Positions 6,651 through 33,641 of a DNA stretch of 35,927 bases are shown one piece after another. The DNA is from SAR202 cluster bacterium AG-426-M11 (GTDB lineage Bacteria > Chloroflexota > Dehalococcoidia > Lucifugimonadales > UBA826). Each line of letters starts with the position of its first letter. The first letter of the stretch is position 1. Below the pieces are notes generated by a model. The model searched no databases, was not told the DNA's origin, and worked only from the letters and a program-made list of their open reading frames with translations. The translations under genes and the position numbers were made by a program. The stretch spans positions 1 through 35,927 of the forward strand of contig QCNV01000012.1 in assembly GCA_003213095.1 (NCBI GenBank), written 5' to 3'.

Positions 6651-7883
6651 ATGCCAGACAGTTCAACATCTTATGACGTAATTATATTAGGCGCTGGTGC
6701 TGCAGGATTAATGGCAGCTATCACTGCTTCAAGACGTGGTAGAAAAGTTTTAATTTTAGAAAAATCGAATAAAGTCGGAAAAAAAATTTTAATGTCTGGA
6801 GGAGGTCGATGTAACTTTACAAATGAATTTGTGGAGGCTGAAAATTTTATTTCTGAAAACGAACATTTTTGTAAATCAGCACTTAATCAGTTTTTACCTA
6901 TAGATTTCATTCGTTTAGTAGAGACTCACGGCATAGAATATGAAAAAAAGAAAAACAATCAGTACTTTTGTATTCATTCTTCACGAGAAATTTTGGATAT
7001 GTTATTGAATGAATGTAAATATAACAATGTTCAAATCATGTGCGATATTAATGTAACTCAAATTCTCTCGACAATTAATACAACCAAAAAATTTAAAATT
7101 AATTGTGATGAAATTTTAAAAGATTCATCTAATTTTTTAACATTCGATTGTGAATCTCTATTAATAGCTACAGGAGCTCTATCAATTCCTACTTTAGGTG
7201 GTAGTGGATATGGTTATGATGTTGCCACTCAATATGCACTTGAGGTAACTGAAACTAAAGCTGGCCTAGTACCTTTTATTTTTACAGACAAATATCAATC
7301 AGTTTTCAAAAACCTTGCAGGCATATCCATATACTCAAAAGTAGAATGCAATAATCAAATCTTTTATGACAACATACTTTTTACACATAAAGGAATCAGT
7401 GGCCCAGCAATATTGCAGATTTCAAATTACTGGAATCCTGGGGATTCTATTAAATTAAATCTTGTAACCGATACCAATCTTTATGACAAACTAATTGATG
7501 CCAAAAATAATGGGGAAAAAATTTTATTAAAAACATTTTTACGTCAATATTTACCTAAATCTTTTTTAAAAGAATTCGAAAATATTTGGTGGGAAAAATA
7601 TAAAAAAACTCCTATAGAAAAAATTAACGAATCTGAATTAAAAACAATTGCTCATCAAATTCATAATTGGATATTAAATCCATCATCAACAGAAGGCTAT
7701 CGAACTGCAGAGGTGACTGTTGGTGGAGTGAAAACTTCTGGAATTAGTTCCAAAACTATGGAAGTAAAAGATTATCCTGGGCTATACTTTGCAGGAGAAG
7801 TAATGGATGTTACTGGGCATTTAGGAGGATTCAACTTTCAATGGGCATGGGCTTCAGGTTATTGCGCGGGATTAAATCTTTAA
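6651..7883 (+). CDS. NAD(P)/FAD-dependent oxidoreductase, BaiN/HI0933 family
   Basis: A 410-residue flavoprotein of the HI0933/BaiN (PF03486) family, normally about 390-420 residues. It has a Rossmann dinucleotide motif GAGAAGLMAA at 14-23, the family signature MSGGGRCNFTN at about 48-58, a central domain, and the C-terminal FAD-contacting FAGEVMDVTGHLGGFNFQWA. BaiN from gut clostridia was linked to bile-acid dehydroxylation, but most homologues have no proven substrate, so that role should not be transferred. The gene starts about 120 bp from the divergent ThDP enzyme; no clear Shine-Dalgarno precedes the ATG at 6651, which may be translated from a very short leader. The next gene starts inside its 3' end. 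Confidence 0.9.
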   Translation: MPDSSTSYDVIILGAGAAGLMAAITASRRGRKVLILEKSNKVGKKILMSGGGRCNFTNEFVEAENFISENEHFCKSALNQFLPIDFIRLVETHGIEYEKKKNNQYFCIHSSREILDMLLNECKYNNVQIMCDINVTQILSTINTTKKFKINCDEILKDSSNFLTFDCESLLIATGALSIPTLGGSGYGYDVATQYALEVTETKAGLVPFIFTDKYQSVFKNLAGISIYSKVECNNQIFYDNILFTHKGISGPAILQISNYWNPGDSIKLNLVTDTNLYDKLIDAKNNGEKILLKTFLRQYLPKSFLKEFENIWWEKYKKTPIEKINESELKTIAHQIHNWILNPSSTEGYRTAEVTVGGVKTSGISSKTMEVKDYPGLYFAGEVMDVTGHLGGFNFQWAWASGYCAGLNL

Positions 7884-8140
7884 CATTAATTATGTTTTTG
7901 TTTTTAATAATTATATTAATTAATTGTAATTCAACAAACAAACCTACATGTTTAGATATTTCAGAACGACCTGATGAAAGAAATTACATAATGAAAATTG
8001 AAAAAGAACGAGAAAGATATGAGCATGACTCAGATGAATATGTCAAATTGTATCGAGAAAAAATGGAAGAATTTAAATCTCACTATTCTGAACAAGAATT
8101 ATCAGAGTTAGGTGAAATTGAAATTTGTGAATCAAGCTAA
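7841..8140 (+). CDS. Small predicted lipoprotein of unknown function
   Basis: A 99-codon frame whose start overlaps the 3' end of the flavoprotein gene. The N-terminus has a basic stretch (RLLRGIK), a long hydrophobic core (LIMFLFLIIILIN) and then Cys29, which reads as a lipoprotein signal peptide, although the residue before Cys is Asn rather than Gly/Ala/Ser. The remainder is charged and probably helical (EKERERYEHDSDEYVKLYRE). Possible starts are ATG 7841, ATG 7847, TTG 7862 and ATG 7892. The first three keep the basic n-region, and 7892 would leave a signal with no positive charge, so I prefer an overlapping start. I recognise no domain. Function unknown; probably tethered to the outer face of the membrane. 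Confidence 0.5.
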   Translation: MGMGFRLLRGIKSLTLIMFLFLIIILINCNSTNKPTCLDISERPDERNYIMKIEKERERYEHDSDEYVKLYREKMEEFKSHYSEQELSELGEIEICESS

Positions 8141-8172
8141 TACGGCAAAATCTATTTACATCACATGTAGTT

Positions 8173-9375
8173 TCAATCAATAGCAGAGTATACCAATGTG
8201 CGCAATTCTCTTCGTATATTATATTGACTTGAAGGACGTAATTGAGTTAGGAATACTACTGCTAAATTCTCAACAGGGTCTATCCAAAAAGCAGTACTTG
8301 CTGCTCCACCCCATGCTAATTCTCCAACATTGCCTGATACTTGGGATGCTGCGGGATTTAACAAAACTGAAAAACCTAAACCAAATCCAACTCCAGTATA
8401 AGAAGTTTCGCTCCATCGACCATATGCACAACTTTTAAGGTCTGTACCATTTGTCAAATGATTAGAAGTCATAAGATCCAAAGTTTTGCGACTTATTATC
8501 ATGTGATCATTTAGTGATCCCCCATTTAAAATCATTTCACAAAAAGAAATGTAATCATCAAGTGTAGAAACAAGACCACCACCACCAGAAAACACTTTAG
8601 GTTTAGATATGAAAGTTCCTGAAATAGAATCGTCCACCAAAGTCAAAGAGTTGGATTGTTGATAAGAATAACATGAAGCAAATCTAGAAATTTTTTCAGG
8701 TGGAACATGAAAACTTGTATCTGACATCTGAAGAGGGTCAAAAATTTCGTTTTGGAAAAACACATCAAGAGTTTTACCAGAAATAACTTCAATTAAGTAC
8801 CCACATACGTCAGTAGAAACTGAATAATTCCAAGCAGTTCCAGGAGAGAATTCAATAGGAATGGTACTCAATGACTCAACAAATGTAGACAGGCTTTGTT
8901 GCGATTCTCGATCAATGCCCATGGTCCTATAGGCATGATCTACATTTGTTCTTTCTGTGTGACCATAGGTTAATCCAGATTGATGAGTTAATAAATCTCG
9001 AATTGTAATTTCTCTTTCTAAAGGAGTAGTAATAAAGTCTCCCATATTTCCCTGTTGATAAACTCCTAAATTTTTAAATGAAGGGATGTATTCTGATACA
9101 GGATCGTCTAATTGAAACATTCCTTTTTCATAAAGAGTCATTAATGCGATGGACGTAATTGGCTTGGTCATAGAATAAATACGAAAAATTGTATCTCGAT
9201 TCATAGGAATGTTTTGTTCTAGATTCATCATGCCTAAACTTGATATATAACCTAGTTCCCCGTTTCTGTACACTCCAGTCAATGTACCTGCAAATCTTTT
9301 TGTGTCTATATATTTTGTTTGTAAATGTTCATCAATAAGATTTAGTCTAGATTTAGAAAAACCAAAATAACTCAT
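8173..9375 (-). CDS. Serine hydrolase, class C beta-lactamase/esterase fold
   Basis: A 400-residue member of the Beta-lactamase (PF00144) family. Counting from the start used here, SMTK at 68-71 supplies the nucleophile Ser68 and Lys71, YSVSTDV is the YxN-like second motif (Tyr-Ser-Val, as in EstB-type esterases), and WGGAASTAFW near the C-terminus replaces the KTG strand. These features point to an esterase or peptidase rather than a true beta-lactamase. There is no signal peptide, so it is probably cytoplasmic. The frame stays open upstream to 9414, but the ATG at 9375 has AAAGGTGGATCGG in front and avoids overlap with the acetyltransferase gene, so I place the start there. It lies 22 bp downstream of that gene and is likely co-transcribed. 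Confidence 0.87.
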   Translation of the reverse strand: MSYFGFSKSRLNLIDEHLQTKYIDTKRFAGTLTGVYRNGELGYISSLGMMNLEQNIPMNRDTIFRIYSMTKPITSIALMTLYEKGMFQLDDPVSEYIPSFKNLGVYQQGNMGDFITTPLEREITIRDLLTHQSGLTYGHTERTNVDHAYRTMGIDRESQQSLSTFVESLSTIPIEFSPGTAWNYSVSTDVCGYLIEVISGKTLDVFFQNEIFDPLQMSDTSFHVPPEKISRFASCYSYQQSNSLTLVDDSISGTFISKPKVFSGGGGLVSTLDDYISFCEMILNGGSLNDHMIISRKTLDLMTSNHLTNGTDLKSCAYGRWSETSYTGVGFGLGFSVLLNPAASQVSGNVGELAWGGAASTAFWIDPVENLAVVFLTQLRPSSQYNIRRELRTLVYSAID

Positions 9376-9397
9376 CCGATCCACCTTTGGGTATATA

Positions 9398-10561
9398 TTA
9401 GAATTTTTCACCAATCCACGGTTTTGGGCCAGTAAATATTGTATTTGCTAAAGCGATTGTTTCTACAGAACCTTCAATAAGTCCCATGATTTTTAAATCT
9501 GTAGCTGAATAATGACTAGTGTATAAAGGTGCAAAACCACGTGGCCCTAATTTTAATAATTGTTTTGATGATGGTGATATAACCTTTTTAACATATCCTA
9601 TACCCTCATTTATACTTAAATTCCAAATTCCGTTATTTTCTGGTATCTCATTGTCGTTGAATTCAAAATCTATAGAGGCATTTACTCGAGCAGGATAACC
9701 TCTCTGCTCTAAAGCATCTGAAATATTTAACACTCTTACCATCCAGTCTGTAGATGATTTTAAATTTGTTTCTTGTTCCTCCATAGCGAAGTCAATAGGG
9801 TCACTCGGAGGACCATTCCAAGAAATTGTTTCTATAACTGTTCTATGGTCAGCAAAAAACCTTAAGATTCTTTCTGAAGACTGTTGAGTTGAAGAAACCA
9901 TGTCTCGAATTCTAATGTGGTCTCCTGATCTAGACTGTTGATAATTAATATATCCAACTACTTGGCTTTCATCGCGAATGTAATATTTGTAAATCGGTCT
10001 GCCATCACTTGTAGTGATTAGATCCCAAAGTAAACTTCCTCTGTCCAAATTGCCATTTCCTTGTTGAGCTCTTTCATTGAACAGTAATACCATTTCCTCA
10101 TCGTTTGATGCTTGTTCAACTTTAAGTTTATTCAGTGCTGCTCTCATTTCTTTTATGGGAGCTTCATATGTAAGCATAACTCCGGACCTTTCATATCCCT
10201 TAGATCTGTAGACTCTGACACTAGATGGAAAAAGGGTTGATATAGCCATACCGTTATTTCTCATTTCATTTAATGCATTTGAAAGCATTGTAGAGGCTGC
10301 ACCTATTCCACGACCTTCTGGAGCAACTCCCACTGATGTAACAGCTCCAGTGCGTACCTTTCTGCCACCAAACCATTGATACATATCTATGATTGCAATA
10401 CCACCTAATATGTTCCCATCGGATCTAATAGCCCTGAAATTTTCATAACCTACTTTCCTATTCCAATTTGGATCTCCATGTCTATGAAGCGCTTGCTCGA
10501 CAATTGACCATGTTAGTTCAGCTTCAGATTCTGAGATTTTCGAATAAGTAAGATTAGTCAA
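9398..10561 (-). CDS. GNAT acetyltransferase, Eis-like
   Basis: A 387-residue protein close to the length of Eis-family acetyltransferases (about 400). The acetyl-CoA pyrophosphate loop VGVAPEGRGIG lies at 77-87, followed by the Eis-type phrase STLFPSSVRVYRSKGYERSG. The rest fits a second GNAT-like domain and an SCP2-like C-terminal domain, and the protein ends in Phe, as Eis does with its C-terminal carboxylate at the active site. Eis enzymes acetylate amines of aminoglycosides, peptides or polyamines; the natural substrate here is unknown. The start is TTG with a near-perfect AGGAGG five bases upstream. It is probably the first gene of a two-gene unit with the serine hydrolase. Confidence 0.87.
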   Translation of the reverse strand: MTNLTYSKISESEAELTWSIVEQALHRHGDPNWNRKVGYENFRAIRSDGNILGGIAIIDMYQWFGGRKVRTGAVTSVGVAPEGRGIGAASTMLSNALNEMRNNGMAISTLFPSSVRVYRSKGYERSGVMLTYEAPIKEMRAALNKLKVEQASNDEEMVLLFNERAQQGNGNLDRGSLLWDLITTSDGRPIYKYYIRDESQVVGYINYQQSRSGDHIRIRDMVSSTQQSSERILRFFADHRTVIETISWNGPPSDPIDFAMEEQETNLKSSTDWMVRVLNISDALEQRGYPARVNASIDFEFNDNEIPENNGIWNLSINEGIGYVKKVISPSSKQLLKLGPRGFAPLYTSHYSATDLKIMGLIEGSVETIALANTIFTGPKPWIGEKF

Positions 10562-10679
10562 ATTTTCCTCCTAGTATTGTGTATAGCAAATATTATCAGT
10601 AATTAAGTAAAGGTAAAAATTGAAAATTTTCAAAAAGATAATGTATTCACAATTTAAGTAAAACCACTAATTCGTAGCT
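10562..10679. other. Intergenic stretch between the acetyltransferase gene and the tRNA-Lys-derived repeat
   Basis: AT-rich sequence that must contain the promoter of the minus-strand acetyltransferase gene. I see no open frame with a ribosome site. Its right end merges into the hairpin at 10659-10690. Confidence 0.5.
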
Positions 10680-10690
10680 AAATTAGTGGT
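10659..10690 (-). terminator. Hairpin with T-run at the distal tRNA-Lys copy
   Basis: On the minus strand ACCACTAATT pairs with AATTAGTGGT (10 bp) and is followed by TTTTAC, giving a rho-independent terminator shape. The stem starts inside the CCA/discriminator region of the truncated tRNA copy, as it does at the complete gene. The loop differs from that of the 12101-12132 terminator, so the identity of the two copies stops inside the hairpin. Confidence 0.6.
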
Positions 10691-10736
10691 GAGCCGGGAG
10701 GGGTTCGAACCCACGACCTAATGATTAAGAGTCATT
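10680..10736 (-). repeat. 57-bp direct repeat: 3' half of tRNA-Lys, distal att-like copy
   Basis: These 57 bases are identical to 12122-12178, which cover the 3' part of tRNA-Lys(CTT): anticodon arm, variable loop, T arm, acceptor 3' strand, CCA and the first bases of the terminator stem. The D arm and the 5' acceptor strand are missing; after GTCATT the sequence becomes unrelated. It cannot fold as a complete tRNA. It fits an attachment-site copy left when an element integrates into the 3' half of a tRNA gene. Confidence 0.85.
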
Positions 10737-10761
10737 ATACTACCTGTTTTTTGTCAGTAAA

Positions 10762-10880
10762 TACGTACAATTACGTACAACCTACGGACACTTCTAGGCA
10801 CGAATCCCCTACTCTAAAACCATTACGACAAATTACATACAATTATGTTCAACAAATTAGGACACATTTTGGACACATTT
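10762..10880. repeat. Two diverged copies of an iteron-like block, 72-bp period
   Basis: A block beginning TACGTACAATTACGTACAAC at 10762 and ending in GGACACTTCTAGGCAC reappears at 10834 as TACATACAATTATGTTCAAC followed by GGACACATTTTGGACAC. The two copies are similar but not identical and are 72 bp apart. They lie beside the truncated tRNA copy, where integrase arm-type or excisionase sites would be expected. There is no credible reading frame through them. Confidence 0.5.
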
Positions 10881-10940
10881 ATTGTTTTTTGATAGGTTAG
10901 ATATTTCAATTGTAAAAATTTGATCTAATGAATATTAATT

Positions 10941-11390
10941 ATGAAACATTTAACAGTATTAACCTTAAGTTTTTTTATAGCATTTATAGGGTGCGTATTT
11001 CAGAATGAAAAATCTATATATGTTTCAGACATAACTGATGCTGTAGAAGTATATTTATTTGTTGACACTGAAAAATGTGAAACATCAATATACCAAGCCC
11101 TATGTAGAGCAAATTCACTTAAAAAGTTATTGGATGTGATCAATCAAGCAGAACCACCTGAAGGATTAAGATTGGAACATAGATATTTGCAACAAGCTAC
11201 AAATAATGTGTATCAATTTCATCTAAAAGTGTTAGATGGTGAAATCAATTCTCAATTAGTAAATGACACTGAAGAAGCTCTAGATATTTGGAAAGACGCA
11301 TTTTTGATTGAATGGGTACAGGCTGCTGGCATTGAGGACATCATTATTAATGAATGGTTCCCCAAAATTCCCGATACATATAAAAATTAG
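10941..11390 (+). CDS. Predicted lipoprotein of unknown function (element cargo)
   Basis: A 149-residue protein starting MKHLTVLTLSFFIAFIGC: a short basic n-region, a hydrophobic core and Cys18 in a FIGC lipobox, so it is probably lipid-anchored outside the cytoplasmic membrane. The mature part is soluble and helical with several acidic stretches (EVYLFVDTEKCETSIYQ, EEALDIWKDAF), and Cys52 and Cys60 could form a disulfide after export. I recognise no family. It lies inside the tRNA-Lys element, opposite in strand to the other two cargo genes. The ATG has no clear Shine-Dalgarno. The frame and signal peptide are convincing, the function is not known. Confidence 0.6.
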   Translation: MKHLTVLTLSFFIAFIGCVFQNEKSIYVSDITDAVEVYLFVDTEKCETSIYQALCRANSLKKLLDVINQAEPPEGLRLEHRYLQQATNNVYQFHLKVLDGEINSQLVNDTEEALDIWKDAFLIEWVQAAGIEDIIINEWFPKIPDTYKN

Positions 11391-11423
11391 GGCACATTTA
11401 TAGTTTTTATAGTAGTAAAAATT

Positions 11424-11582
11424 CTATATAAAATTTCTAATCACTATTACATTAATTACCCATAAAGATATTGCTAATGCTGGGGCAATGTTTCTAGTTT
11501 TACTGTTAATTAAAAAATCTCTATAAAGAAGAAAGGTTATTAAAAAAGTCAAAATTAGAAAACTGATGTTAATCAGAGCCAT
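11424..11582 (-). CDS. Small membrane protein (element cargo)
   Basis: A 52-residue protein, MALINISFLILTFLITFLLY at its start, with two hydrophobic segments separated by a polar loop (RDFLINSKTRN) and a hydrophobic C-terminal segment ending in IRNFI. The frame extends upstream to a TTG at 11615, but the ATG at 11582 has AGAAGG seven bases before it, so I choose the shorter form. No family is recognised. It is one of three small surface or membrane proteins that make up the whole visible cargo of the tRNA-Lys element. Confidence 0.5.
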   Translation of the reverse strand: MALINISFLILTFLITFLLYRDFLINSKTRNIAPALAISLWVINVIVIRNFI

Positions 11583-11668
11583 CAAAAAACCTTCTGAGAT
11601 ATTATATTTCACCAATTCCCAAGAAATACAAGTACTAAATAAAAGAAAAATTCTAAATACTATAAAAA

Positions 11669-11983
11669 TTAATCATCTTCCTCAGGTTGTTTTTGGCCCC
11701 TAGATTCCATACGTTTCTCAATTAAATTGATTCCATCTGTAAGTAAATTACTTGAATATAGAGGAATAGTGAGAAACCCTACAATATTTATAATTATTAT
11801 GAATCCTACAGTAAACCAGGCAATATAAAATCCCCAATGCGCGTCAAATATTCCTAAAAGTGCTAGTCCTATCACCATGAAGACCACATATAATCCTCTT
11901 CTGATAAAATCTGCACGCCTTTGATTGTTGAAATGTTTTTCTAATAGGGCTTGACGTTCTAGTTCGTATTCTTCATTAGTCAT
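11669..11983 (-). CDS. Two-TM protein of unknown function (element cargo)
   Basis: A 104-residue protein with a charged N-terminal helix (NEEYELERQALLEKHFNNQ), two strongly hydrophobic segments (about 30-50 and 58-80) with a short HWG turn between them, and a charged C-terminus ending in QKQPEEDD. The layout resembles small 2TM-domain proteins, but I cannot name the family. The open frame reaches 12013; the ATG at 11983 follows AAGGATTTAGGT and gives a more natural N-terminus. It is the cargo gene nearest the complete tRNA and reads away from it, in the direction of tRNA transcription. Confidence 0.55.
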   Translation of the reverse strand: MTNEEYELERQALLEKHFNNQRRADFIRRGLYVVFMVIGLALLGIFDAHWGFYIAWFTVGFIIIINIVGFLTIPLYSSNLLTDGINLIEKRMESRGQKQPEEDD

Positions 11984-12049
11984 ACCTAAATCCTTTTTGA
12001 CGATTGTACACAAATTGATGAAATAAAAAAAATTTTAGTTGTAAAAATC

Positions 12050-12071
12050 AGGACACATTTTGGACACATTT
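12050..12071. repeat. 22-bp repeat, right copy (tandem GGACACATTT)
   Basis: The bases match 10859-10880 exactly. Each copy is two GGACACATTT units with an 11-bp period, close to one helical turn. A single degenerate version (AGGGCACATTT) is seen around 11390. The copies sit near each end of the tRNA-Lys element, which suits protein-binding sites such as integrase arm sites; this is inference. Confidence 0.65.
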
Positions 12072-12100
12072 TTTAAAATTAAGTGTCCGTCAAAACTACG

Positions 12101-12132
12101 CAAAACCACTAATCTAGCTATAAATTAGTGGT
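12101..12132 (-). terminator. Terminator of tRNA-Lys, stem beginning within the CCA end
   Basis: Reading the minus strand, ACCACTAAT (12132 to 12124) pairs perfectly with ATTAGTGGT (12113 to 12105), followed by TTTTG. The first stem bases are the discriminator A and the encoded CCA, so the terminator shares bases with the tRNA 3' end. Confidence 0.7.
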
Positions 12133-12204
12133 GAGCCGGGAGGGGTTCGAACCCACGACCTAATGATTAAGAGTCATTTGCTCTACCAACTGAGCTACCG
12201 GCCC
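12129..12204 (-). tRNA. tRNA-Lys (anticodon CTT)
   Basis: A full cloverleaf reads on the minus strand: acceptor GGGCCGG with CCGGCTC (7 bp, one G-T pair), D arm GCTC AGTTGGTA GAGC, anticodon stem AATGA/TCATT with loop CTCTTAA (anticodon CTT, decoding AAG), T loop TTCGAAC, discriminator A and encoded CCA. The T stem GTGGG/CCCTC has one T-T mismatch. It lies on the same strand downstream of the VOC-protein gene. Its 3' half is repeated at 10680-10736. Confidence 0.95.
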
Positions 12205-12653: not shown

Positions 12654-13140
12654 CTAGTCTCTAAAATTTACATATTGAAGTGGTTGATCCAAATTCATTT
12701 TTTTTATGAATTCTATAGCTTCTTGTAAATCATCTCTTTTTTTACCAGTCACTCTTAATTCCTCACCTTGAATAGCAACTTGTACTTTTAATTTTGTGCC
12801 TTTAACAGACTTTGTAATGTTTTTTTGCTACTTCTTTATCGATTCCTTGTTTAATTGTGAGAGATTGTCTAAGGCTATCACCTGAGGCAGTTTGAGGTTC
12901 AGCAAAATCTAATGCCTTACTGTCAATTTTTCTTTTAACACAATTTTCTTTTATTAGTGCGTGTAGTTGAGTGAGTTTCATATTGTCGTCAGCTGTGATT
13001 GTTAAAGTATTATCTGTTCTTTGTACGTCACACTTAGTACCAGCCAAGTCAAATCTTTGTTTGATAGATCTTTGGACTTGATTAATTACATTGTCTATTT
13101 CCATTAAATCTGTTTTTGAAACTACGTCGAATGAAGGCAT
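12654..13140 (-). pseudogene. yajQ: YajQ (DUF520) nucleotide-binding protein, broken by one frameshift
   Basis: The first frame (start 13140, MPSFDVVSKTDLMEIDNVIN) matches the YajQ N-terminus but ends after 112 codons. The missing C-terminus continues in another frame: [13 protein letters not shown], then [15 protein letters not shown] and the family ending [12 protein letters not shown], stopping at 12654. Joined, the gene encodes about 161-162 residues, the normal YajQ length. The frame changes at a run of seven A (minus strand; T at 12820-12826) and would be restored by one A fewer. Everything else is conserved, so this may be a sequencing or assembly error, a fresh mutation, or a site of transcriptional slippage. 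YajQ proteins bind nucleotides and in some bacteria c-di-GMP. SD: CAGGAGTTTTTA before the ATG. Confidence 0.85.
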
Positions 13141-22786: not shown

Positions 22787-24967
22787 TTATTTACGTTCAG
22801 AAATTAATAAATCTGATCGATTCCTCCATTTTTTTAAAAATCTGCCATAATTTTTTCGACTTAACTCATCTCTTTCTGATTCAACCAAAGATGTCCAACC
22901 ACGATGTTCATGTAAAACCATCGGTAAATTATGATCAGCAAAAATTTTATAACCTTTTTCTTTAAACTGAAAACTGTAATCTATATCTAAGTTCCTATAA
23001 AACCTGAATGATTCTCTCATTAAGCCAACTTGAGATACATCATTTCTTCTAAAGGCAAAACAGTATCCTTGCATAGCATCCATTTCACCAGATTCTCCGT
23101 CCCCATCATGAAAATGCATTAAATCTGGAGTTTTCAATCCGGCAAAACCTGCTATTCCTATAGAAGTATCAGAGAGAATTAGATTTATTTGATTTAAAAA
23201 TTCTCCTGTGATTTCCACACTTGTATCTAAAAGTATAAAAATTTTACCGCTAGATTTTTTAATTAATATATTTTTTGCGGCTCCATCACCTAAAGAGTGA
23301 TCAGCATGAATAATTGATAATGCAGGAATTTGTTTGGACATTATTTCTAAGGCTTCACCTGTAGCTTCATCACAACCATTGTCTAGAGCTAAAATTTCAA
23401 AATTTTTGGAATCAGAAAATTTATTGACACTTAAAATACACCTTTCAGCATCTTCTAAATGGCTATTAATTAATAAAGCAACTGTAAAATCGATTTCATT
23501 ACTTACATTATTTGAAAACTGAATTTGAGAAGATGAAGAAATAGTAGGCCATCGTTCATTTCTAATTTCACATAAACTTTTTTTACGTAAAATTGAATGA
23601 GATTGGTAATCTTGGACTATATATCCTGAAGATTCTAGATTTGTTCGAATATCATCAGATTTTTTAAATTGTTTTTGGGCGCGCAATTTAGTTCTATCTG
23701 CACAAATATTCAAAATATCATCTGGAATTTCAAAAGAATCATTCGTATTTGGTAAATCAAATCCTAAAATCTGATCTATGTAGATTAATAATTCGTATTT
23801 GTCCTTAGGGTTAAGCTCTGATTCTAATAATCTCCATACAAGATTCAAAACTTCTGGCATATTTAAATCATCGGAAAAAGAATTTTGAAATTTCATTTTC
23901 CAAGCATTGAATTTTTCTGTATCTATTTGATTTGTATGAGAAGAACGACGAAATTCATGGAATTTGATTTTTAGTTTGTTTAATGCATTCTCAGAAGCTT
24001 TAAGTGAAGCAAAGGTGAAATTGATTCTAGTTCTATATCTAGCAGTCATACAAAGATAACGGAATGCCAAAGGATCTATACCTCTATTAATCAAATCAGA
24101 TATCAGATACGCGTTGCCAGAGGATTTTGCCATTTTTACGCCATCAGCTAGCAGATGTTGGCCATGAACCCAATGATTAACTACTTTTCTGCCCGTAAAT
24201 CCCTCACTTTGTGCAATCTCACCTTCATGGTGAGGGAAAATGTTATCAACTCCACCAGTATGAATATCGATATTTTTACCTAAATATTTTATAGACATAG
24301 CAGAACATTCTATATGCCAACCTGGAAATCCATATCCCCAAGGACTATCCCATTTTAATAATCTACCTTCTTCCGCTTTTTTCCATAAAGTAAAATCTCT
24401 GGGATCTTTTTTTAGAGGATCGATTTCTACACGAATAGCATCTTTTAAAGTGTTTTCATGAATATTTCCCGATAATTGACCATATTTATGAAAATTTCTT
24501 ACATTAAAATATAAATTACCTTCAACTTCATAAGCTAATTTGTTTTTTTCTAATTGCTCAACTATTTTGATCATTTCTGTAATGTGATCTGTAGCTTTAG
24601 GGAACTCATCTGCAGGTAAAATGTTTAATGTTTTTTCATCATTAAGAAATCTTTGTGTGTAAAAATCAGCAATTTGCTGAGGAGTTTGCCCCGATGCTAT
24701 TGCTGCAGCAACAACCTTGTCTTCACCGCGCTCTAGTACTTCTTGTCTCATATGACCTACATCAGTAATATTTTTGATGTGGATCACTTCATAGCCCAAA
24801 AGTATTAAAGATCGCTTGATCCAATCAGCCATCAAATAAGACCTTAAGTTTCCAATGTGAGCGTCTCTGTATACGGTTGGTCCGCAAGTATACATACGTA
24901 CTACCCCTTCTTCGAAGGGAATAATTTCATTTTTCTGGCGTGTAAGAGTATTAAAAAGCTCTAACAC
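22787..24967 (-). CDS. cysS: Cysteine--tRNA ligase fused to a GT2-like glycosyltransferase domain
   Basis: A 726-residue protein. Residues 1 to about 470 are a complete cysteinyl-tRNA synthetase: Cys28 in TCGPTVY, HIGN (37-40), Cys221 in GWHIECS, FPHHEGEIAQSE with the His/Glu zinc ligands, KMAKS (278-282), and the alpha-helical tRNA-binding end KKSDDIRTNLESSGYIVQDY. From about 490 a GT-A-like domain follows: IDFTVALLINSHLEDAERC, ILALDNGCDEATG, LLDTSVEITG in place of a DxD, GYCFAFRR, FYRNLDIDYSFQ and HEHRGW. The GT acceptor and donor are unknown. The GTG at 24967 follows GGGAG at the right distance and gives the usual MLELFNTLT start; an ATG two codons upstream has no room for a ribosome site. 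Confidence 0.92.
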   Translation of the reverse strand: MLELFNTLTRQKNEIIPFEEGVVRMYTCGPTVYRDAHIGNLRSYLMADWIKRSLILLGYEVIHIKNITDVGHMRQEVLERGEDKVVAAAIASGQTPQQIADFYTQRFLNDEKTLNILPADEFPKATDHITEMIKIVEQLEKNKLAYEVEGNLYFNVRNFHKYGQLSGNIHENTLKDAIRVEIDPLKKDPRDFTLWKKAEEGRLLKWDSPWGYGFPGWHIECSAMSIKYLGKNIDIHTGGVDNIFPHHEGEIAQSEGFTGRKVVNHWVHGQHLLADGVKMAKSSGNAYLISDLINRGIDPLAFRYLCMTARYRTRINFTFASLKASENALNKLKIKFHEFRRSSHTNQIDTEKFNAWKMKFQNSFSDDLNMPEVLNLVWRLLESELNPKDKYELLIYIDQILGFDLPNTNDSFEIPDDILNICADRTKLRAQKQFKKSDDIRTNLESSGYIVQDYQSHSILRKKSLCEIRNERWPTISSSSQIQFSNNVSNEIDFTVALLINSHLEDAERCILSVNKFSDSKNFEILALDNGCDEATGEALEIMSKQIPALSIIHADHSLGDGAAKNILIKKSSGKIFILLDTSVEITGEFLNQINLILSDTSIGIAGFAGLKTPDLMHFHDGDGESGEMDAMQGYCFAFRRNDVSQVGLMRESFRFYRNLDIDYSFQFKEKGYKIFADHNLPMVLHEHRGWTSLVESERDELSRKNYGRFLKKWRNRSDLLISERK

Positions 24968-25001
24968 AATCATCTCCCGATTGACAAATTATATCTAATT
25001 T

Positions 25002-27279: not shown

Positions 27280-28611
27280 ATGAGAGCTATCGGGTATTTT
27301 GATTCAACTATATCTTCTCAAATGAACCCAGAAGAATTTGAAGAATTTTATCAAAATTATTGCAACCTATATGTTCATATGAATCAAGGATTGTATATAG
27401 ACACTAACAAAAAATACACGGAAAAAGAAAATCTATTCCAATTAATTCAAAATTCTGAATCTGGTTATTTGATTTTAGTTCCTGATTCACGACATATTTC
27501 TGAAGACTTAGAGGTTTTAGTCACGACAATTATTAAAATTGAAGAAAGCCAATCTTCTATTCAATGTATGGATGAAGATTTTCCAGACATTTTACAAAAT
27601 GCATTTCAGCATACTTTAGGATCCGGTGGATCTGTGCAGAAAAGTAAAAACATTAAAACGGGCATGCAGCCTCGAGCGATAATAGGTAAAGCCTTAGGTA
27701 AGCCTCCTTTTGGATACGGTATTTCAGATTCTGGAGAATTTGAAATCATTCCTTCTGAATCAGAGGTTGTGTCAAAGATTTTTAGTCTTTATGTAAACGA
27801 AAATATGGGACTTAGAAAAATAACTCAATATTTAAATGACGCAAAAATTTTTACCAAAAAAGGTAATCCCTGGAATATCGTTTCAGTTAGAGAAATATTA
27901 AAGAATTCTGCTTATATTGGCACATATTTGAGATTTGGATTAAGACTTCCAAGAAATCATGAATCTATTATTAGTCCCGATATTTTTAGAAAGGCTCAGG
28001 ATATGACGAGAGCAAGAAGATCATATCAAGCTTTCGCAACAAATAATCCATACTTATTATCAGGTCTATGCTTATGCTCAGACTGTAATAACACAATGAT
28101 AGGGTCAAAAAGAGTCCAATCTTGGAATAGATCTAACGGTGATAGAGTTAGCCATACCTATCGATATTATCAGTGTCAATCTAAAAACAATTTAAACCAA
28201 TGTGGGTATCACACTTGGAAATCTGAAAAGCTAGAATCATTAGTAATTTCTAAGCTTTCTGATTTATCACAATCTGGTGATCTACAGGCAAGTATGCTGG
28301 GAGATAAAGGTTCTTTGAAACAAGAAGAAGCAGCTAGGCAACGATTGTCGAATGTAGAAAAAATGGAAAAAAGATTTATTGATTTCGCAAAAAAAACTTC
28401 TCAAGGCAAATCTGTTATTGCCAGATTATCGCTATATCTCGATGCTCTGAATTCAGCCAGAGAACAAGCTTTTTTTTCTGTTTCTCCTGATCAAGTACAG
28501 TCATTTCTTAATAAATGGGATGAGCATGATTTCCCTCAAAAACAGTCTTTTTTAAAGGAATATGTAAAATCAATCATCGTAAAAAAAAGATCAATTCAGA
28601 TCAATATTTAA
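27280..28611 (+). CDS. Serine recombinase-family protein with degenerate catalytic domain
   Basis: A 443-residue protein with large-serine-recombinase architecture. Residues 130-240 are a Recombinase domain (GKPPFGYGI, EVVSKIFSLYVNENMGLRKI, GNPWNIVSVREILKNSAYIGTY). Residues 258-310 are a zinc beta-ribbon with Cys266, Cys269, Cys299 and Cys308. A coiled coil and an IIVKKR ending follow. The N-terminal resolvase domain is short and abnormal: the usual YxRVSTxxQ reads YFDSTISSQ, so the conserved Arg becomes Asp8 and the Ser nucleophile position is Thr10, and the DRLsR motif reads DSRHIS. It is probably a DNA-binding protein that no longer cuts. It is coupled to the zinc-ribbon gene and ends 5 bp before the rnpB promoter -10. 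Confidence 0.82.
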   Translation: MRAIGYFDSTISSQMNPEEFEEFYQNYCNLYVHMNQGLYIDTNKKYTEKENLFQLIQNSESGYLILVPDSRHISEDLEVLVTTIIKIEESQSSIQCMDEDFPDILQNAFQHTLGSGGSVQKSKNIKTGMQPRAIIGKALGKPPFGYGISDSGEFEIIPSESEVVSKIFSLYVNENMGLRKITQYLNDAKIFTKKGNPWNIVSVREILKNSAYIGTYLRFGLRLPRNHESIISPDIFRKAQDMTRARRSYQAFATNNPYLLSGLCLCSDCNNTMIGSKRVQSWNRSNGDRVSHTYRYYQCQSKNNLNQCGYHTWKSEKLESLVISKLSDLSQSGDLQASMLGDKGSLKQEEAARQRLSNVEKMEKRFIDFAKKTSQGKSVIARLSLYLDALNSAREQAFFSVSPDQVQSFLNKWDEHDFPQKQSFLKEYVKSIIVKKRSIQINI

Positions 28612-31264: not shown

Positions 31265-31340
31265 AGGGGTGTAGCTCAGTTGGTAGAGCGTTGGTCTCCA
31301 AAACCAAAGGTCGTGGGTTCGATCCCTGCCACCCCTGCCA
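31265..31340 (+). tRNA. tRNA-Trp (anticodon CCA)
   Basis: A complete cloverleaf: acceptor AGGGGTG with CACCCCT, D arm GCTC AGTTGGTA GAGC, anticodon stem TTGGT/ACCAA with loop CTCCAAA (anticodon CCA), T loop TTCGATC, discriminator G and encoded CCA. The 3' end points into the accessory region that carries integrase relics. Confidence 0.96.
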
Positions 31341-31369
31341 GTCATTTAGCTACGAAATCGACTGGTTTT
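31338..31369 (+). terminator. Terminator of tRNA-Trp, stem beginning in the CCA end
   Basis: CCAGTCATTT pairs with AAATCGACTGG (one bulged C), followed by TTTT. The first three stem bases are the encoded CCA. The loop region ATTTAGCTACGAA closely resembles that of the hairpin at 10659-10690. Confidence 0.65.
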
Positions 31370-31402
31370 AGCTCCTACCACAAATCAAATTCGTGTCAAA
31401 GG

Positions 31403-31426
31403 CGACAATTGGGCGACAATTATTCA
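31403..31426 (+). repeat. Tandem 11-bp repeat downstream of tRNA-Trp
   Basis: GGCGACAATTG is followed directly by GGCGACAATTA, two units with 11-bp period. The position, just beyond the 3' end of a tRNA, and the spacing match the GGACACATTT pairs of the tRNA-Lys element, so an integrase arm-site role is possible. Confidence 0.4.
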
Positions 31427-33305: not shown

Positions 33306-33641
33306 TTATTCATTCACCACTAACTTTGTAATATTGTCAGGGTGTTGCTGTGGAGATTCTCCATTCATCAATCTTTCTAAGTTATCTATATGCATTTCTT
33401 GAATGTTTGGTGCTACATGAGTATAGAGATCAGCTGTTATAGCAATAGTTGAATGCCCTAGCCTTTCAGAGACCACTTTTAATGGTGATCCAGAGGATAA
33501 CACAATGCAGATGCATGGGAATGTCTCAAACTATGACAACTCGCATCTCCCCTACCCATCTGTTTTAATTGTTGAAAATGACGAAGAATAAACCTTATCT
33601 CTAGAGTTCTATTATCTGGATAAATTTTTTCTTATAAAAAA
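33306..33641 (-). pseudogene. Tyrosine recombinase/integrase, C-terminal remnant with frameshift
   Basis: The minus strand encodes the end of a phage-type integrase catalytic domain: NRTLEIRFILRHFQQLKQMG, then CHSLRHSHASA (HxxR box) in one frame, and after a one-base shift near 33500 SSGSPLKVVSERLGHSTIAI (GHS box) and LYTHV with the nucleophile Tyr. It ends IDNLERLMNGESPQQHPDNI and KLVVNE. The N-terminal DNA-binding domains and the first catalytic Arg are missing; a stop lies at about 33639. It cannot encode an active recombinase. It shows that an integrating element once occupied the region downstream of tRNA-Trp. Confidence 0.85.

Follow-up and report, generated by a model that had tools for sequence, protein, structure and literature searches.

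An integrase-less insert at a SAR202 tRNA-Lys gene ends in phage-type attachment arms

The short insert at tRNA-Lys(CTT), here called unit A, ends in complete attachment arms of the phage type and contains no viral genes. We consider it probable that the insert is an integrase-less cassette that goes back to the int-attP-xis junction of a temperate phage and was integrated in trans by a matching phage tyrosine integrase. This suggests that small gene packages can use the integration enzyme of a virus to enter a genome without having an enzyme of their own. Coordinates refer to the window, which is the whole 35.9-kb stretch of DNA analyzed, unless another contig is named.

Results

Structure of the insert at tRNA-Lys

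Unit A is enclosed by a 58-bp direct repeat with 100% identical copies (10679-10736 and 12121-12178), spaced 1442 bp apart. The initial annotation had reported a perfect repeat of 57 bp; the perfect identity stands, but the measured length is 58 bp. The annotation had also placed a complete tRNA-Lys at one copy and only a 3' half at the other, which agrees with the recovery by ARAGORN of a complete tRNA at the right copy only. RF00005 scores the left copy as a partial tRNA (10690-10749), and this copy breaks off exactly past the anticodon stem-loop AATGATTAAGAGTCATT. Because the identity of the copies stops just beyond this stem-loop, the crossover was placed in the anticodon loop. The parts of unit A are listed from left to right.

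10663-10690, minus strand: distal (left) hairpin, which overlaps with the CCA end of the displaced 3' half of the tRNA (CCACTAATTTAGCTACGAATTAGTGG)
10679-10736, minus strand: left 58-bp copy, the displaced 3' half of tRNA-Lys (attL core); exact repeat
10725-10731, minus strand: anticodon loop, putative 7-bp crossover region (left); identity of the copies ends just beyond
10737-10859, plus strand: conserved left att arm (xis-side arm of phage attP), aligned with phage L201
10860-10880, plus strand: left tandem 11-mer pair, GGACACATTTT twice (putative arm-type sites), 135 bp from the core
10881-10895, plus strand: relic of the xis 3' end (ATTGTTTTTT; the L201 equivalent is the last codons EIKKQ and the stop)
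10941-11390, plus strand: cargo ORF of 149 aa with a lipoprotein-like signal (..FFIAFIGC)
11424-11615, minus strand: cargo ORF of 63 aa, hydrophobic; may not be a gene
11669-12013, minus strand: cargo ORF of up to 114 aa with two membrane-like stretches by inspection
12035-12049, plus strand: relic of the phage int stop region (TTAGTTGTAAAAATC; the L201 int stop TAG lies within TTAGTTGTAAAAATT)
about 12051-12072, plus strand: right tandem 11-mer pair, GGACACATTTT twice (putative arm-type sites), 95 bp from the core
12073-12104, plus strand: conserved right att arm (AGTGTCCGTCAAAACTACG), matching phage L201
12105-12132, minus strand: element-borne hairpin fused to the tRNA CCA
12121-12178, minus strand: right 58-bp copy inside the complete tRNA-Lys (attR core); exact repeat
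12129-12204, minus strand: complete tRNA-Lys(CTT) (ARAGORN), its 3' half supplied by the element

The right hairpin is likely a tRNA terminator supplied by the element. A Pfam profile search found no integrase inside unit A, and the only Pfam integrase hits of the genome are located elsewhere, which bears out the initial view of an insert without integrase. Contig C10 encodes one of them, a protein of 327 aa, and the other is a decayed fragment located at 33408. Neither was retained as a helper, the intact protein being of Xer size and the other a fragment. At the integrase loci of the family that were examined, no arm-type period-11 pair was found nearby.

Cargo

The cargo region of unit A spans about 1.1 kb. 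The predicted content of one lipoprotein and two small membrane-like proteins agrees with the ORFs found, with the reservation on the 63-aa ORF given above. The 149-aa protein matches no family in Pfam, PHROG or PADLOC, and no relatives besides itself were found across 250 genomes of the order. The 63-aa ORF has no family in Pfam or PHROG, and the 114-aa ORF has only sub-threshold Pfam matches. By inspection, lipoprotein-like signals are present in the 149-aa protein of unit A, the 455-aa protein of unit B and a 220-aa protein at tRNA-Trp (see below for both loci). The cargo of the cassettes would consist mostly of putative lipoproteins, and the proteins may be surface-exposed. Ltp, a superinfection-exclusion lipoprotein encoded as an accessory gene in the lysogeny modules of temperate phages, provides a precedent (PMC3952083), and by analogy a role of the lipoprotein cargo in phage exclusion might be guessed at.

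Tandem 11-mer pairs at both ends

The GGACACATTT pairs mentioned in the initial annotation are real and located near both insert ends, with the full pair GGACACATTTTGGACACATTT present at 10860-10880 and 12051-12071. With up to three mismatches allowed, the full pair has no further match in the 1.16-Mb genome. Exact period-11 tandem pairs are found three times in the window, i.e., the two of unit A and one at tRNA-Trp (31401). Among shuffled inserts, 101 of 20,000 trials produced at least one exact period-11 pair, whereas the real insert has two, identical in sequence and one per end. A chance origin of the unit A structure was rejected. Across 93 distinct tRNA loci of three genomes, an 11-bp pair at most 70 bp from the tRNA 3' end is found only at Lys(CTT), Glu(TTC) and Trp(CCA) of the same genome as unit A. 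The hairpin at the CCA has the same distribution among the 93 loci, and because it is confined to pair-bearing loci, it was brought by the elements.

Related units and an empty site

The initial annotation had proposed looking for the same insert elsewhere, and related units are present at a second tRNA of the same genome. Contig C8 carries two further units with the same ends, arranged in tandem at its tRNA-Glu.

L035, about 7785-9453: unit C (outer), about 1668 bp
L035, 9453-11150: unit B (adjoining tRNA-Glu), 1697 bp

Unit B carries the 11-mer pair TTTTTGCCGTG at both ends and encodes a 455-aa lipoprotein-like nuclease with SNase and DUF3761 domains. The left arm of unit A is 97% identical over 106 bp to that of unit B and 85% identical to that of the sister species G001. 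The right-arm sequence AGTGTCCGTCAAAACTACG occurs exactly at three places, all within the same genome. Unit C is older than unit B; its tRNA fragment is degenerate, and its TTTTACCATTTTTTTACCAG-like pairs are eroded on one side. As cargo, unit C encodes a multi-span membrane protein of 433 aa for which Pfam gave no significant match, and the right end of the unit closely matches phage L201, including the pair.

The sister species G001 (SAR202 MAG ALOHA_A2.5_119; same genus) is about 92% identical in the flanks of tRNA-Lys. Its tRNA-Lys carries the end of another unit (unit D) with the 11-mer pair TTTTTGCCTAC and different cargo, so the relatives do not all hold the same three genes at this locus. 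The contig ends inside unit D, and the cargo protein begins with Cys at the contig edge. The tRNA-Glu of G001 is an empty site, where the stop codon of a serine hydrolase gene is followed directly by the tRNA, with no hairpin and no arms. The same serine hydrolase gene neighbors tRNA-Glu in the genome of unit A. A strictly empty tRNA-Lys, which the initial annotation had proposed to look for, was not seen within the genus: the site is occupied in G001, the G002 assembly has no tRNA-Lys(CTT), and G015 belongs to a diverged genus. A search with the left end across the order returned, outside the genus, only rpsC or other chance matches. The sample covers MAG and viral contigs and four units in one genus, of which one is truncated by the end of its contig. 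The three complete units, none with phage genes (1442, 1697 and about 1668 bp), all come from one genome.

The loops of the two hairpins of unit A differ. For the right hairpin, the match is with the distal hairpin of the G001 unit, and for the left hairpin it is with the tRNA-Glu units and the phage. This pattern suggests an earlier insertion at tRNA-Lys.

Phage contigs with matching attachment regions

A scan of IMG/VR with the left-arm pattern recovered the 8.4-kb contig L201 (IMGVR_UViG_3300030090_005687). This contig encodes a tyrosine integrase (PHROG 1, E 1.6e-50), an excisionase-like HTH protein (PHROG 1840, E 3.9e-8) and a small terminase. The order is int, an 11-mer pair, the conserved ends together with the 3' half of tRNA-Glu, the pair again, and xis. 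The pair TTTTTACCACT (TTTTACCACTTTTTTACCACTTTT) is located on both sides of the attachment region, which contains the tRNA 3' half only and no complete tRNA. The int stop codon of L201 lies inside TTAGTTGTAAAAATT, and this stretch persists in units A and B. Units A, B and D retain the last xis codons ATTAAAAAACAATAA, either completely or partially. Since the int stop region and the xis 3' end are kept at the unit ends, the cargo occupies the place of the whole phage interior. The parent of the units' attachment region was thereby found, and the host of L201 would be the one pointed to by its attachment site.

A search of 250 genomes of the order, run without positive control, gave no relative of the L201 integrase with an E-value of 1e-25 or lower. 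No other viral locus of this integrase was found, and GenBank phages hold only distant relatives of at most 29% identity. Scans of IMG/VR with other attachment patterns returned L201 again or glycosyltransferase-like chance hits only.

A scan of IMG/VR for the pair of unit A itself retrieved a single contig, L217, from an unrelated phage of 54% G+C. The stop codon of its tyrosine integrase is followed by GGACACATTTTGGACACATTTT, a tRNA 3' half cut at the anticodon loop, and GGACACTTTTTGGACACTTTTT. The initial annotation had proposed looking for an integrase flanked by GGACACATTT pairs, and L217 provides such a case on a viral contig. No phage was found that combines the GGACAC pair with the exact ends of unit A, and the hits of a short GGACAC query in GenBank phages did not exceed chance level. 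A match to a GCC-type pattern, the virus L218, which has no integrase in the 8.2 kb seen, was not counted as evidence. L218 has 11-bp period repeats at 700-790 (TTTTTGCCTAG), which resemble the 11-mer of G001.

Other features of the window

In the window at 31265-31421, a tRNA-Trp(CCA) is followed by a hairpin at the CCA that is related to those above (CCAGTCATTTAGCTACGAAATCGACTGG) and by an 11-bp pair of another sequence, GGCGACAATTG twice (31401), and then by a 220-aa lipoprotein-like ORF. Contig C44 (L214) starts with the distal end, i.e., a tRNA-Trp 3' half and hairpin. The contig break probably falls within a larger and older tRNA-Trp element with a length of at least 4.6 kb. A decayed tyrosine integrase is found at 33309-33620 (minus strand), consisting of the C-terminal 65 aa (PF00589, weak) and an upstream piece, HSLRHSHASAL, in another frame. 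The end of contig C11 of G001 shows a similar integrase remnant next to a degenerate 3' fragment of tRNA-Trp. A large serine recombinase (27280-28611, plus strand; PF07508, Zn ribbon) directly follows a 235-aa coiled-coil/zinc-ribbon-like ORF and has no link to the tRNA-Lys insert. A 728-aa ORF (22787-24973, minus strand) joins the catalytic domain of a cysteinyl-tRNA synthetase to a glycosyltransferase family 2 domain. The YajQ-like gene at about 12680-13140 (minus strand) appears to contain a frameshift in a stretch of seven T near 12820, which might be an assembly error.

Discussion

The ends of unit A share the organization of lambda-type attachment sites, with repeated arm-type sites on both sides of a core. 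Distances from core to pair are 95 and 135 bp in unit A, 95 and 132 bp in unit B, 96 and 132 bp in L201, and 101 and 130 bp in L217, with the same geometry beside int in both phages. The core is common to the target gene, and the crossover falls at a tRNA sublocation that is the same for Glu as for Lys. The 11-mers were identified as putative arm-type sites because of their position, pairing, symmetry and conserved geometry beside int, and they would be bound by the N-terminal domain of the integrase. Phage types among Oenococcus prophages differ in the direct repeats of their attP arms, and the N-terminus of the integrase varies along with these repeats (PMC8074189). A covariation of this kind would explain how near-identical arms can carry different 11-mers.

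We suggest the following mechanism. The cassette keeps a complete attP, with a tRNA 3' half, a hairpin, arms of about 95 and 135 bp, and an 11-mer pair per end. A phage with matching arm specificity (the GGACAC type for unit A) would supply the tyrosine integrase in trans. The circular cassette would then recombine with tRNA-Lys through a crossover in the anticodon loop, and its own 3' half would rebuild the tRNA and contribute the hairpin. Other units with other 11-mers and cargo might have arrived likewise at tRNA-Glu and at tRNA-Lys of G001, and repeated insertion at tRNA-Glu could have pushed the older unit outward. The proposal of tRNA-targeted integration by a tyrosine recombinase without a resident integrase is supported by four independent results, namely the tRNA-Glu units, the empty tRNA-Glu of G001, the different tRNA-Lys unit of G001, and the phage attachment region between int and xis.

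In the main rival reading, the units would be decayed prophages, i.e., full temperate phages with int that were reduced to attachment ends and one or a few accessory genes kept by the host, with nothing moving at present. Tandem att-bounded remnants from the decay of integrated elements are well documented (CIMEs; PMC5704250), and the tRNA-Glu array is tandem with a degenerate tRNA fragment in the outer unit. The older tRNA-Trp island holds a decayed integrase, lipoprotein accessory genes of the Ltp kind occur in the lysogeny modules of temperate phages (PMC3952083), and a resident integrase deleted after integration would leave identical ends. However, the complete units (1.44, 1.70 and 1.67 kb) retain no trace of phage genes, and the comparable ends stop at the same points, namely the int stop and the last xis codons, although pairs and cargo differ between units. 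Remnants of random deletion should vary. Moreover, units A and B have both of their arm pairs intact, and a dead remnant needs none. We regard prophage decay as a serious but less likely rival. Integration in trans is preferred because the three full units have similar sizes, no phage gene and the same end boundaries with different cargo. The units may still move, for example in phage particles or through the uptake of free DNA.

The units might alternatively be small satellites with their own replication or packaging signals, of the PICI or tycheposon kind, which lost only the integrase. Their small size, tRNA target, cargo and marine host would be in line with known marine satellites, including tycheposons (PMC11389934, PMC10872708). 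Yet no unit has a replication, packaging or regulatory gene, and all are smaller than the 4-200 kb given for tycheposons (PMC10872708). The cargo regions share no sequence with one another and, in terms of a PICI/PICMI-type satellite, no significant sequence with L201, and no packaging-like sequence common to cargo and L201 was found; L201 need not be the helper of unit A. Such an origin appears very improbable. A segmental duplication of the tRNA-Lys region followed by the loss of the 5' half of one copy would account for the 58-bp exact direct repeat alone. The same ends are found at tRNA-Glu with a different tRNA half, in G001 with different cargo and in a phage contig between int and xis, though, and we give this origin almost no credence. 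The phage attP refutes a duplication, and the left copy is not the ordinary segmental duplicate that the initial annotation had considered.

If the proposed trans integration of phage-derived cassettes holds, a broader scheme is possible, which we put forward tentatively. Units of one to few genes with a complete phage attP would form a cassette system, inserted serially behind tRNAs. The 11-mer would act as an address code read by phage integrases and would diverge far more rapidly than the remaining parts of the attachment site, possibly because phages escape being used and cassettes follow. Such cassettes could be a route by which streamlined, hard-to-culture ocean bacteria acquire genes for surface proteins singly or a few together, with no integrase of their own. 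The exact attachment sites also link SAR202 to temperate phages. The succession of pair, about 95 bp, tRNA half, about 130 bp and pair provides a signature for matching cassettes with helper phages computationally.

Comparison with known systems

The nearest known kind are cis-mobilizable elements (CIMEs), defined by retained att sites, missing genes for integration and transfer, and tandem accretion (PMC5704250). Like CIMEs, the units keep related attL and attR (the 58-bp repeat and arm pairs on both sides), have neither an integrase nor transfer genes, and form tandem arrays at a tRNA by accretion. CIMEs, however, arise from ICEs or IMEs by decay, whereas the attachment region of the units is a phage int-attP-xis junction, and the units measure 1.4-1.7 kb with the interior fully replaced at constant boundaries. 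The units were not filed as CIMEs because their attachment region is that of a phage. In the attP of Oenococcus prophages (PMC8074189), direct repeats likewise flank a tRNA core beside the int stop codon, and their sequence varies by phage type, but the attP described here is not accompanied by a phage. Tycheposons and other marine satellites (PMC10872708, PMC11389934) are similarly tRNA-targeted cargo elements of marine bacteria thought to depend on others. Tycheposons differ in having a tyrosine recombinase and a size of 4-200 kb (PMC10872708), compared to 1.44 kb and no recombinase in unit A. CALINs (integron cassettes without integrase) and MITEs, as hitchers (PMC11389934), resemble the units in relying on a recombinase in trans, as presumed here, and in being short single-gene (CALIN) or non-coding (MITE) units. 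In contrast to both, the units described here use a full two-arm phage attP that targets tRNA anticodon loops.
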